Source: Fibrobacterota bacterium (lineage in GTDB: Bacteria; Fibrobacterota; Fibrobacteria; UBA11236). Taken from it: a stretch of DNA of 64,000 bases. Every line of letters begins with the position of its first letter. Positions within the stretch are counted from its first letter, which is position 1. Below, in pieces: positions 1,879-6,323 of this stretch. Position numbers and translations under genes: made by a program. The DNA is taken from positions 1 to 64,000 of the forward strand of contig JAEKLQ010000022.1 in the NCBI GenBank assembly GCA_019509785.1, read 5' to 3'. The notes beneath the pieces are model-generated. The model saw nothing but the letters and a program-made list of their open reading frames with translations. It was not told the origin of the DNA and did no database searches.

Positions 1879-2736
1879 CTATTTCCGCTTCTTGGTTTTG
1901 GGGAAATACTGGATGGACAATTGCATCAACGATTCCGGCTTACCGGAGTCGCCCGCCACGATATCGAGGACCTCCCTGCGGAAGCGTTCGATCTCGCCGT
2001 GCAAACGCTTGCGGGCATCCACGCTCACCGAAAGCAACAAGGTGGAAACGTGGCGCTCATCGGTTCCGAAGCGGAAGGGAGCCTCGGCGGCTTGCAGAAT
2101 CCATTCCCGGTTGAGGCGGCGCACCAAGGCGCCCATGGTCACGGGCGGCTCCACGAAGGACTCGGTCACCAGGTACCGCCCGTCGCCCCCTTGTTTGACC
2201 AGCTCCCACTCGCATAGCTCCCGGATATACTTCTTCAAGGCCGCCGGAGCGATGGGCGGATCGAACACGGCAGCGAAGGCTTCATAGTCGCCGCGGAATT
2301 CGAAGGCATGCAAGGCGCTGTACACCAGCGGATAATGGAAGTCCTGGTAGTACTTGACCAAGTGCGGGCTCACGCGCGCGAAACGGCTGCGATTGCGGCG
2401 GTACAGGATTTCCTGATAGATCTCCTGCCGCTGCGCGTCCTTCTTGGACTGCCCGAAATCCACCAACAGCTTGAAGAATTCCCCTTCCGCCTCGTTCAAC
2501 CCGAAGGCGGCCACGGTCTTCTTGATGGCGTTGTCGCTCAAGGTCCGCTTCCCGAGGATCACGTCCAGCAAATACCCCGGATTGGAAATCCCCGCATCCT
2601 TCGCGAAGCGCCGATAGGAATACTCGCTATCCTGCGCCTTCTTCCACGCGAAGCTCTCTTTCAGGAAAGCCCGGAAATCGTCATACCGATACACGTTCGG
2701 CGGCGACTCTTCCTCAATATGCGGCTTGGCTTCCAT
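1879..2736 (-). CDS. TIGR02147 family protein (DUF4423), probable DNA-binding regulator
   Basis: 285 residues, the usual size for this family, which is best known as a large paralogous set in Fibrobacter. The N-terminus carries the typical opening YRYDDFRAFL, followed by an HTH-like stretch (SYRRFAKDAGISNPGYL...VILGKR) and then the helical DUF4423 region to the end. I place the start at the ATG of MEAKPHIEEE because GGGAG lies about 11 bases upstream; a GTG 33 bases further up has no convincing ribosome site. An exact TATAAT lies upstream on the minus strand at about 2826-2831. The lipoprotein gene follows 3 bases downstream. A regulatory role is inferred from the fold. Confidence 0.85.
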   Translation of the reverse strand: MEAKPHIEEESPPNVYRYDDFRAFLKESFAWKKAQDSEYSYRRFAKDAGISNPGYLLDVILGKRTLSDNAIKKTVAAFGLNEAEGEFFKLLVDFGQSKKDAQRQEIYQEILYRRNRSRFARVSPHLVKYYQDFHYPLVYSALHAFEFRGDYEAFAAVFDPPIAPAALKKYIRELCEWELVKQGGDGRYLVTESFVEPPVTMGALVRRLNREWILQAAEAPFRFGTDERHVSTLLLSVSVDARKRLHGEIERFRREVLDIVAGDSGKPESLMQLSIQYFPKTKKRK

Positions 2737-2739
2737 GGC

Positions 2740-2939
2740 GTAGATCGCTCCCAAAAGTAAAGATGCCACATGACCCGGTGGTAGTCAATCAATTTTTAAG
2801 ATAGTGATAACGATTTATTTCAATTATACGGCAAAAAATCCCATTATTTGGTGATTTTTTGGGGATTTAAGTATTTGAAACTATTAATAATGGATAACAG
2901 GAGATGCTTGCGCTGCCCCCATCTGCGCTCATCGTCGCC
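2740..2939 (-). promoter_or_regulatory. AT-rich promoter and terminator-like region between BNR gene and TIGR02147 gene
   Basis: About 200 bases, far richer in A+T than the flanking genes. On the minus strand an exact TATAAT occurs near 2826-2831, but without a good -35 box at 17 bases. Just upstream a 9-bp A/T-rich inverted repeat (CAAAAAATC ... GATTTTTTG, about 2831-2860) could end transcription of the BNR gene. It probably carries the promoter of the TIGR02147-lipoprotein pair. Confidence 0.45.
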
Positions 2940-4541
2940 TTACGGTTCGATGTATCGCCAGATTCCGGCGGACCAGCTACCGCCAACGAGTACATATTTG
3001 CCAATCGATGCATCATAGGTCACTGCGGTAACCTTTGGCCCGTTGGTCATACCCGCCGGCACCGCCGAAGTCGCCCATACGAAGGATTGTCCATTGCTAT
3101 CGCCCACCTGAAAGTAGGGATTCTGGTAAGCATTTGTCGCGCCGTTGCAACTGGAGTACACATGATTAGGCGTTCCGTATACGCTCCCACCGCTGAGATC
3201 CTGACCGACATGGGTCCACGTCGCTCCCAAATCGGTGCTGCGCGATATCCCTTTGCCTTCTTTCGCATTGTCACCGCTGATGTATACGACACCACCCGCG
3301 CCCGCCTGATAAATCTGGGTCCCTCCATGCGCATGCTCGTTGCTGGAGACTTTGGTCCAGTGCGTTCCGCCGTCGGTCGTTCTGACCGTTCCTGCAGAGC
3401 CGTCTTGCACCTGCGCGATGGCAATCCAGGTTGTTCGCGTGGTGGCGGCGCTGCCGGTATTGATGAAGAACGGATACCACGAAATCCCCCCATTCATGTC
3501 TCCACTCGCATCGTGCCACGTGACGCCACCGTCCACCGATTCCGCAACGCCGCTTTGCTCATGAATCCCGGTGATGAGATGGTTCGCGTCAAACGGGTCG
3601 ACTTGCGGTGAGTACGGATCGCTATTGGCGTTTCCGCCAAAGGGGATCGCGTAGTTGGCCCATGTTACACCGCCGTCGGTGGATTTGAAAATGCCCGAAA
3701 CGCCGTATCCCTGGCATGCCCACATTGTCGGCGGAGTATTCGGATCGCGATTTGGATTGAGGTCGATACATTCACCCCACGCGCGGCCGGCGTCCATCAC
3801 GCCGGTTGCGGTGATTTTCGTCCAGTTTACGCCGGCGTTGGTCGACTTCCAAACGCCTTGATAGCAAGAAAACGCGTAGACATCATTAGGGCGAACCGGG
3901 TCGGCAAGGACATCCATCGCCCCGAAGTTCTGGCTAGTCCCGTGAAAATCGAAATCGAGCGTGAAGCCTGCCGGAGTAACATTGGTCCAGACACCGGTTT
4001 CGACGGTAAGGGGTAACAGTTTGATTGTCCCGACAGCGCTCTGCGTATTGGCTACGCTGATCTGCCTGCCCGAGTAACCAGTCGCGTTGATGTAGAGCGT
4101 GTAATTTGCGCCGACCTTTGATAAATGGCTTTTTGATGATACCGCGAAAAGGGCGGTCTGGCTTGCGTTGCCGCTCTGCAGCAAAGAAGCAGGATAGATC
4201 CGCGATCCGTTCGCCAGGTAACTTTCGATACTCACCGTGGAGAGCGGGGTTATACCCGAAATCGAGATTTGCTTTTCATCAAGGATGATTTTCCCTTGCG
4301 CGGATTGACGGGTGTTTCGCGACAAAATGCTCGTTGCCGTTCCGGTAAGCGTGAAGATTCCATTTGCTGCTGTTGTCGTCGAGAATTGCGGGAGCTCGAG
4401 GAGCTTGACCGAAGCGCTTGCAATGGCCTGCGATGTGGAGCTGTCAACAACGGTGCCTGCGATATTTACCGTCTGGCAATTTGCCGACGCATTTATGAGG
4501 ATTACAATTGCGGCCGTGAATACGAATTTTTGAGGGAATAT
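2940..4541 (-). CDS. Secreted BNR/beta-propeller protein with N-terminal carboxypeptidase-regulatory-like domain; non-standard start
   Basis: The coherent reading frame extends well above the first ATG/TTG. From 4541 it gives a signal peptide (FPQKFVFTAAIVILINASA), then a beta-sandwich like the carboxypeptidase regulatory domain (NIAGTVVDSSTSQAIASASV, later GIFTLTG), then at least five BNR/Asp-box-like repeats (STNAGVNWTK, STDGGVTWAN, SVDGGVTWHD, TTDGGTHWTK, STDLGATWTH). The fold is therefore a sialidase/GH74/sortilin-type propeller, about 533 residues. No ATG, GTG or TTG precedes the signal peptide in frame. A GGAGG site sits 6 bases before an ATA codon (4539-4541), so either ATA is used or ATG has mutated or been misread. 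GC is clearly lower than in the neighbours, which suggests transfer. The substrate is unknown. Confidence 0.7.
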   Translation of the reverse strand: MFPQKFVFTAAIVILINASANCQTVNIAGTVVDSSTSQAIASASVKLLELPQFSTTTAANGIFTLTGTATSILSRNTRQSAQGKIILDEKQISISGITPLSTVSIESYLANGSRIYPASLLQSGNASQTALFAVSSKSHLSKVGANYTLYINATGYSGRQISVANTQSAVGTIKLLPLTVETGVWTNVTPAGFTLDFDFHGTSQNFGAMDVLADPVRPNDVYAFSCYQGVWKSTNAGVNWTKITATGVMDAGRAWGECIDLNPNRDPNTPPTMWACQGYGVSGIFKSTDGGVTWANYAIPFGGNANSDPYSPQVDPFDANHLITGIHEQSGVAESVDGGVTWHDASGDMNGGISWYPFFINTGSAATTRTTWIAIAQVQDGSAGTVRTTDGGTHWTKVSSNEHAHGGTQIYQAGAGGVVYISGDNAKEGKGISRSTDLGATWTHVGQDLSGGSVYGTPNHVYSSCNGATNAYQNPYFQVGDSNGQSFVWATSAVPAGMTNGPKVTAVTYDASIGKYVLVGGSWSAGIWRYIEP

Positions 4542-5102
4542 AATGAGCCTCCGTTGAGAAGGGCGCCGACCAGGATGAGGATCCCTCTTAAGGTCTTATA
4601 TTGAAAAGATACCCCGATGTTGACCTATATCCCCAGAATAACGGGAAAAAAACAGTTGTCTGATATCACTTCATCATCCCTATCGGGGGCAGCCATGATG
4701 CGGTCCCGACCGCCAGTACCGCATTCAATACCGATAACGACTTAAGGCCCTCCCGACGCAGTTAACGGGTCATGCGCGGGTCAGCCAGACCGGGCCGCGA
4801 TCGCGGCTGATGCGCGTGAGAGACGGACGGGCTGCGGGGGTGCGTGGCCGGCGAGTTACGAGCGTCACGGGCTGGGGAATGGAATCGTAACCAGGGAATC
4901 GAAAGCCCGCACACCCACAAGAAGGACCGCGAAGTCTATTGCGGGCATCCATTCCCCAGACCGTGGATGGACCGCAATTGCGGAAAGCGAGTAGCCGAGC
5001 CGGCCACGCACCCCCGCAGACCGGCCGGCCCTAAAGATCAAGCCACGCTCGCGCCAAGAACCTCGCCGCGAGAACGAACCTTAAGAGTGCGCCAAGCGAG
5101 CC
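4542..5102. other. Intergenic region holding a large inverted-repeat structure
   Basis: 560 bases without a convincing gene. The first 250 bases contain a small palindrome (CCGCGATCGCGG near 4796-4807). Positions 4820-5030 fold into one long rod, described separately. The last 70 bases before the pgsA-like stop hold short imperfect repeats (GCGCCAAG twice) but no T-rich terminator. Confidence 0.6.
4822..5029. ncRNA. Candidate structured RNA, rod-like with central bubble (6S-like outline)
   Basis: A perfect 21-bp inverted repeat (4832-4852 with 4999-5019) extends with two mismatches to about 30 bp (4822-4852/5000-5029). Nested inside are a 16-bp stem (4866-4882/4949-4965, one mismatch) and a 6-bp stem (4905-4910/4941-4946). 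Between the outer and inner stems lies an uneven bubble, 13 bases on one side and about 33 on the other. The long side holds the palindrome CCGCAATTGCGG. Closing stem, central bubble with a small hairpin, inner stem and terminal region, at about 208 bases in all, match the general plan of bacterial 6S RNA. No sequence motif proves this and the strand is not clear. RNase P, tmRNA and SRP RNA motifs are absent. Confidence 0.5.
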
Positions 5103-6323
5103 CTAAAAATATTCCTTGAGGACTTTCTTGTTCGCCACGAAGTAATCGATTCCGGAAAGAAACGTCACCAAAGTCACGATGCTCATCAGCGCATAGGGGG
5201 TATACGCCCAGATATCCGGCCAGTAGGGCGTATGTGGCGCATAACGCCGTAGCAAGGTATCCACGATCTCCAGCACCAGGATGGTGATGATGGCCACCCC
5301 TTGCAGCGCCGTCTTCCATTTCCCGCTCCGGCGCGCGTCGATGGTCACCCCGGAAGCCGCGCCCAGGGTCCGCAGGGTTTCCACCGTGGACTCGCGGAAG
5401 AAGATGACGGCCACCATCCACACCGCCGCGTAACCCGAAGCCAGGAAGCAGAGGAAAATGCCCATGTTCGAGATCTTGTCCGAATAGGGATCCAAGTACT
5501 TGCCCAATTGGCTGACCTCGCCGCGTTTGCGCGCCAGGTAGCCGTCGAGACCGTCGCTGATCACGAAGAAGATGGCCAATAGCGCCGCCAGGATCTTGAA
5601 GACCAGATGGTTGTCCTGGTAGACCAGGTTGTTGTCGTAGAAGAAGACCCAGATGAAGACGGGGGTGAGGAGGATGCGGCTGAAGGTCACTTGCGTCGCG
5701 AGCGAGACGGGCTTGCGCGATTGCGGATCGCGGTAGTAGAAGTACAGGTAGCCGATGCTGGTGGCGATCATCATGAGGATGCTGACGACCATCATGATGC
5801 GGGAGTAATGCTCCGAGTTCCAGGTGTAGAGGAGCATGGTGACGTTGAGGGAAAGCGTGGTGATCTTGCTCCAGATGGTCTTGAGCGGTAGCTCGCGGTG
5901 CTCTTTGAGAAGGGCGATGGAGAAGATGAGGTAGAAGACGTTGCGCAGGGTGAGGGTGATTAGGCCCGCGCAAAGCATGGTGGGGAAGTTTTCGTTGGGA
6001 TCCCACAGCATATTGAGGAAGATGGCCAGGAAGATGAGGTTCCCGAGCAGCTTCTCGCCGAGCTCCAGCCAGAATAGGGCCAGGGGGCGCTCGATGTCCT
6101 CTAGTTGCAGCTTGAAGGAGGCCCAGAAGCCCATGGCCAGCGAAGCCGAAAGGAACAGGGCGCCAGCGAGCGGTTTGTGCAGGAACAGGCAGACCAAGGT
6201 GGCGGCGAAGGTGCCCATCTTGGTGAGGACCCACGCGCGGCCCGCTTTGCGCTTAGGCTCCAACCGGGCCTGCTCTGATTCCGTTCCGGCCGCGGCGGCC
6301 GTGCCGGCGGGGATCTCTGCCAT
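5103..6323 (-). CDS. CDP-alcohol phosphatidyltransferase family membrane protein (PgsA-like)
   Basis: 406 residues. The C-terminal half holds the complete CDP-alcohol phosphotransferase signature DG-x2-AR-x8-G-x3-D-x3-D (DGYLARKRGEVSQLGKYLDP, then YSD), so it transfers a phosphatidyl group from CDP-diacylglycerol to an alcohol at the inner membrane. The family is usually about 180-250 residues. This one has an extra N-terminal part of about 190 residues with several hydrophobic segments, so the exact substrate (glycerol phosphate, inositol phosphate or other) is uncertain. It is the last gene of a long minus-strand run, about 95 bases after recN. The start ATG at 6323 has only a distant ribosome site. 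Confidence 0.85.
   Translation of the reverse strand: MAEIPAGTAAAAGTESEQARLEPKRKAGRAWVLTKMGTFAATLVCLFLHKPLAGALFLSASLAMGFWASFKLQLEDIERPLALFWLELGEKLLGNLIFLAIFLNMLWDPNENFPTMLCAGLITLTLRNVFYLIFSIALLKEHRELPLKTIWSKITTLSLNVTMLLYTWNSEHYSRIMMVVSILMMIATSIGYLYFYYRDPQSRKPVSLATQVTFSRILLTPVFIWVFFYDNNLVYQDNHLVFKILAALLAIFFVISDGLDGYLARKRGEVSQLGKYLDPYSDKISNMGIFLCFLASGYAAVWMVAVIFFRESTVETLRTLGAASGVTIDARRSGKWKTALQGVAIITILVLEIVDTLLRRYAPHTPYWPDIWAYTPYALMSIVTLVTFLSGIDYFVANKKVLKEYF

Follow-up and report, generated by a model that had tools for sequence, protein, structure and literature searches.

The Fibrobacterota DNA analysed here (a window of 64,000 nucleotides) carries an unannotated 208-base hairpin (4822–5029), and the question is what kind of element it represents. 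The hairpin is flanked by the stop codon of pgsA, which runs towards it, and on the other side by a gene of the pgsA strand with weak similarity to glycosylhydrolases. The preliminary description took it for a rod-like RNA with the outline of 6S RNA or, failing that, for a new structured RNA of this phylum. The hairpin itself has held up in every respect: a perfect 21-bp inverted repeat (4832–4852 with 4999–5019) extends, close to the 30 bp originally suggested, to 27 pairs with two mismatched positions (4824–4852 with 4999–5027), and it encloses nested stems and an uneven bubble with a small palindrome, CCGCAATTGCGG (4972–4983). The folding energy is −124.5 kcal/mol, and none of 200 dinucleotide shuffles folded equally well on either the plus strand (z −9.97) or the minus strand (z −7.39), which, together with the conservation of the nesting across the family described below, bears out the statement that such nesting is improbable by chance. 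The hairpin is thus confirmed as a real, unannotated and evolutionarily constrained structure.

The whole rod occupies 4824–5027 in the plus orientation, which is used throughout although both strands fold, and is matched by a covariance model at 4840–5011 (plus strand, 143 bits). The 5' arm of the outer stem, P1 (4832–4852), contributes 13 bp to the model (4840–4852), all 13 of which show double-sided changes, and pairs with a 3' arm (4999–5019) supported by the fold and by pair changes. Fold and alignment then place a GA, the 5' arm of P2 (4855–4859), a second GA and the 5' arm of P3 (4862–4863) within 4853–4863, opposite the 3' arm of P3 (4987–4988), a GA, the 3' arm of P2 (4991–4995) and a CGA within 4987–4998; P2 is the weakest helix of the family, with 69.4% of cells paired. 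P4, a 17-bp stem with one G-A mismatch in the window copy, joins 4866–4882 to 4949–4965, the latter placed by alignment, and carries double-sided changes in 17 of 17 pairs. The P5 hairpin (GCCCGC/GCGGGC, 4905–4946) is nearly invariant, with 99.3% of cells paired, and surrounds a variable apical loop (4911–4940). On the 3' side the alignment shows an unpaired bulge (4966–4986) with a GACC motif (4970–4973), and an AGACC foot (5018–5022) lies at the base of the stem, in the window copy partly within the outermost pairs. The small palindrome is absent from the alignment consensus and looks incidental. A 91-aa open reading frame that spans the rod (4844–5119) matches no family and is not counted as a gene, since the rod evolves as a hairpin.

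The proposed identity with 6S RNA was not borne out. No Rfam family matched the window at gathering scores, and none matched within 4500–5300 at E up to 10. RF00013, the model that the preliminary description had itself proposed to use, found no match anywhere in the genome even at E up to 10, whereas an identical search gave matches in eight of 14 control genomes. We therefore reject 6S RNA, or any other Rfam family, as an assignment.

The hairpin is instead one member of a repeat family. Searched at the DNA level, the complete 5.4-Mb genome (G000) returned additional, diverged copies, and a covariance model (R1) listed 46 rows there at E up to 10, the last three of them weak. With model R2 at E up to 0.01, there were 46 matches in this genome, 20 in G005, five in G004, four in G002, two in G003 and none in G001, the sixth genome of the genus; six genomes outside the genus had none. 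Three more rods at loci read with the models bring the total in G000 to 49 rods at 40 sites, and the R2 matches in four of the five other species provide 31 further copies, so that copy number per species ranges from 0 to 49. The window contains no further copy according to the covariance model. Under stricter filters, a survey of 167 genomes of the phylum found matches only in five genomes of a single genus out of 40, and no copy in the other 39 genera. Several of the counts below refer to a set of 80 rods (82 rows minus two reverse-strand matches of rods already counted) or, where stated, to a smaller set of 67 of 85 rows kept after removal of duplicates and one reverse match. With 49 copies, the hairpin is a multi-copy genomic repeat, an outcome that the preliminary description had itself counted against its reading, and it is not a single RNA gene.

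The covariation that had been proposed as a check is present. An alignment of 11 copies (A1) has 42 predicted pairs, 26 of them with double-sided changes; among 68 distinct rows, 39 of 43 pairs show such changes, standard pairs fill 90.9% of cells against 65.2% in shuffles, and the covariation score reaches 0.602, as opposed to 0.165. The 68-row alignment had been fitted to the model, yet its signal disappears when the partners are shifted by one, two or three columns. For A2 and A3, the alignments obtained by such fitting, pair counts lean towards the model; A1 was obtained without it. The fold is thus conserved by paired changes in rods whose sequences have diverged widely.

These double changes run from one Watson-Crick pair to another, nearly without G-U steps. 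RNA tolerates G-U pairs but not A-C, so G-U should exceed A-C on a transcribed strand. In the two long stems, P1 and P4 together, G-U occupies 43 and A-C 35 of 2341 cells (32 and 31 of 1970 in the smaller set), as against 32 and 10 of 408 in RNase P RNA from four of the six genomes of the genus, G001 and G005 being omitted from that alignment owing to deletions (5 and 2 of 102 in G000 alone). The frequency of G-U in the rods is a quarter to a fifth of that in the RNase P RNA of the genus, with no clear excess over A-C. By helix, the ratio of G-U to A-C is 16:6 in P1, 27:29 in P4, 6:0 in P5 and 37:42 in P2; P1 and P5 lean towards a plus-strand RNA, P4 does not. The rarity of G-U suggests that the hairpin is kept as a perfect palindrome, either as DNA or on both strands, which does not disprove transcription. 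The unpaired motifs, namely the GA/GA loops and GACC in the bulge and the foot, are strand-specific.

Each repeat is a rod about 230 nt long, with an outer stem of about 26 bp (reaching a median of 13 bp past the 13 modelled pairs), GA-rich internal loops, a 17-bp stem, the GCCCGC/GCGGGC hairpin at the apex and a foot of unpaired (A)GACC. GACC occurs in the 16 bases 3' of the outer stem in 46 of the 80 copies, compared with 10.1 in shuffles; neither GTAG nor CGTC was enriched in the feet of these 80 copies relative to shuffles, and both were rejected as foot motifs. Rods less than 1 kb apart are invariably arranged head-to-head with the foot outward (16 of 16 pairs: nine in G000, one in G004 and six in G005), with spacers of 168–559 bp in the first eleven pairs read, and the paired arms often belong, as judged by eye, to two different sequence types. 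Searching by structure alone revealed an upstream partner palindrome for 26 of the 62 rods with enough sequence, about 0.05 being expected, so most rods are single. One single rod, on contig C54, is accompanied by a half-rod remnant near 5850–5924, with a foot where the partner would end.

Rods are intergenic, and according to gene calls made with a home-made hexamer score, in which some starts are over-extended, the foot-side gene is near (median 73 nt from the core) and the other gene far (median 417.5 nt). Either a stop codon is close to the foot, or the rod precedes the start of a gene. Of the 20 convergent foot-side genes in G000, 16 end with a stop codon at a distance of 20–45 nt from the core; the window copy is an exception, as the stop codon of the convergent pgsA (5103–6323, minus strand; NCBIfam TIGR00560) lies 92 nt past the core. 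A TATNTT box is present 25–200 nt beyond 21 of the 80 rods, with 3.6 expected from base shuffles, so some rods are probably upstream of a promoter, and part of the rods may fall outside the transcript.

Many sites are shared between species. When rods were masked and the flanks of 24 loci of G002–G005 were compared with G000, 17 loci were seen to border a gene that also borders a rod in G000, with the orientation preserved; this number excludes G003 L109, which shares its neighbour in another orientation. The pgsA site of the window is shared with G002 and G004, the pcrA site with G002, G003 and G005, and sites at genes that we take from their protein starts to be guaA, ftsY and uvrB with G005; there are other shared sites too. 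With an assumed 2000–4000 junctions, the number of loci expected to coincide by chance is well below one for each genome; the estimate used counts of 8, 4, 3 and 2, all far above expectation, with L109 included and with 8 rather than 9 loci for G005, two contigs of which correspond at uvrB to one G000 site. Orthologous rods of G000 and the other species mostly show no greater similarity than rods picked at random, and it is the sharing of sites, not the sequence, from which descent in place is inferred; among the more closely related G002, G003 and G004, orthologous rods were mutual nearest matches in the three comparisons that were run. In G001 the site at pgsA is empty, and there is no palindrome upstream of pcrA. 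At three loci upstream of pcrA (L160, L161 and L163) G000, G003 and G005 have different far-side genes although the rod remains next to pcrA, which may mean that rods mark the breakpoints of rearrangements. A separate difference at the window locus concerns a gene matching TIGR02147 (Fsuc_second), a match in keeping with the phylum name Fibrobacterota: in G000 the glycosylhydrolase-like gene (1879–4540) separates it from the pgsA-side rod, while in G001, G002 and G004 the gene of this type, recognised by eye in these relatives, follows more directly.

The explanation that we favour, though only slightly better than evenly probable in our estimate, is that the rods form a giant REP/BIME-like family of extragenic palindromes of one genus, with a GACC foot, a maintained fold, early spread followed by inheritance in place, and a role as a two-way boundary. 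The maintained trait would be the folding ability of the DNA or of transcripts from both strands, preserved because the hairpin is selected for, because one arm is copied from the other in replication, or for both reasons. The element would have spread early in the genus by some mobiliser and would now be inherited mainly with its sites. Judging from its place and from folding on both strands, its present effect is probably that of a boundary at which a transcript from either side would end in, or be trimmed back to, a very stable hairpin. Against this explanation stand the plus-strand lean of P1 and P5, the strand-specific unpaired motifs and uninverted loops, which unselected arm-copying does not predict, the low similarity between orthologous rods of G000 and other species, the 92-nt distance of the window copy from the pgsA stop codon, and the failure to find the mobiliser. 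Y1 transposases (PF01797) are encoded in none of the five rod-carrying genomes; those of the IS200 type occur only in the element-free G001 (C47, 25212–25571; C51, 28492–28850), and for the present genomes such an enzyme is rejected as the mobiliser. So is a reverse transcriptase, as RVT_1 was detected in one of the six genomes of the genus, G005 only (C143, 6826–7440). Phage and plasmid records gave no match to the rod, and the apical hairpin had no exact match in viral contigs, which leads us to reject a phage or plasmid origin; nor did the apical hairpin match exactly in the genome contigs searched, among which its own genome was perhaps not included.

A published account of REP repeats (PMC3733652) describes head-to-head dimers, heterodimers and singletons that are remnants, located between tandem and convergent genes. 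REP/BIME/REPIN elements as portrayed there resemble the rods in being many-copy extragenic palindromes that lie after genes, with an unpaired foot tag, and the rods are likewise dispersed in many extragenic copies and form head-to-head dimers (the 16 pairs). They differ in the unit, 20–40 bp in REP/BIME against about 230 nt; in the foot tag, GTAG or CGTC in the two REP super-families against GACC; and in the spacers, mostly 20–100 bp in REP against those of the eleven pairs. Carriers of GTAG-class REP encode a RAYT (Y1) transposase, whereas rod carriers lack PF01797. By organisation the rods would be filed as a new variant of REP/BIME rather than as a member. They also share features with integron attC sites. 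In attC hairpins, too, conservation concerns the fold and not the sequence, certain unpaired bases are strand-specific, and a stop codon is adjacent; the rods differ from them in being larger, outside cassette arrays, and scattered at 40 sites in both orientations. In a partial coverage of the literature on non-coding and 6S RNA of the phylum, extragenic palindromes and intergenic stem-loop families, we found no description of the rod element. As a large natural case of compensatory changes in nearly every stem pair with almost no G-U, the rods test whether covariation always means RNA, and how long hairpins are maintained in bacterial chromosomes; if the boundary reading is true, dozens of gene borders in a single genus carry a giant hairpin as their mark.

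A possibility that we hold more tentatively is that the rods are DNA-level recognition structures, cruciforms or single-strand hairpins, of some chromosomal system of this genus, with one or two hairpins and the GACC foot marking fixed gene borders, and that the covariation, commonly taken to prove an RNA, would arise at the DNA level.

It appears unlikely that the rods are structured RNAs with an action from the plus strand, in cis or in trans, for example as a regulatory RNA or a protein sponge with repeated GACC. Such a family would account for the extreme covariation, the strand-specific motifs in loops, bulge and foot, the weak G-U excess in P1 and P5, and the orientation of the first set of 13 copies, in which nine of the 11 copies flanked by tandem genes share the direction of these genes. 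The shortage of G-U relative to RNase P RNA argues against it, as do the rods antisense to their neighbours (both neighbours are on the opposite strand in 21 of 71 cases), the mostly unrelated genes adjoining the rods, and the TATNTT boxes that could leave part of the rods outside the transcript. Of the suggested new structured RNA of this phylum, then, the structure is upheld by very strong covariation, but the family is confined to one genus, and with so few G-U pairs it does not resemble an ordinary RNA gene.

Somewhat less probable again is a non-autonomous, MITE-like transposon whose ends would be the two rods of a pair and whose remnants would be the single rods. Dispersed copies, head-to-head pairs with the foot outward, the empty pgsA site of G001, the half-rod on C54 and the variation in copy number between species would fit such an element; no target duplication was noticed by eye in the flanks of 11 pairs, no ORF-bearing copy was identified, paired arms are often of different type, and sites are shared across wide divergence, unlike the pattern of recent insertion. 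MITEs such as Correia/NEMIS or ERIC are small, non-coding, dispersed inverted-repeat elements of intergenic DNA. The rods resemble them in these respects, and differ in having neither an identified target duplication (in the same flanks) nor an identified parent transposon, in a far more elaborate structure and in sites common across deep divergence.

We consider it quite improbable that the rods are unselected palindromes kept perfect solely by template-switch copying in replication. Template switching has been proposed in print (PMC8794818) to create and maintain hairpin stems, and it would yield Watson-Crick to Watson-Crick changes nearly without G-U steps; the conserved unpaired motifs, the foot, head-to-head pairing and the persistence of sites are left unexplained. 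Loop inversion, its expected footprint, was not seen, only one of 2016 comparisons being inverted against 246 forward. Since loops are not inverted and unpaired motifs are kept, template switching between arms, which may contribute to the rods, is not the whole story. Least probable by far is 6S RNA, a low copy number RNA gene with which the window hairpin shares the rod-like outline and asymmetric central bubble, but from which its family differs in lacking any RF00013 or other Rfam match, in its 49 copies, in the rarity of G-U and in the pairing of rods.

The rods of the other genomes carry their own longer tails. Long tail repeats specific to a species or group were observed in the 3' flanks of L031, L042, L045, L046 and L050, for example CTTGAGAGTGCGCCC..GGCGCCC in G005 and CCCCTGGAAGCG..CGCCCCGCCG in G002 and G004. 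Such species-specific tails are a pattern pointing to homogenisation within genomes. In G000, a subfamily (L033, L047, L049, L060, L062, L071 and L014) has a second long stem, around GGTCGGG..GCGATCGCGGC, which extends its rods to over 400 nt.
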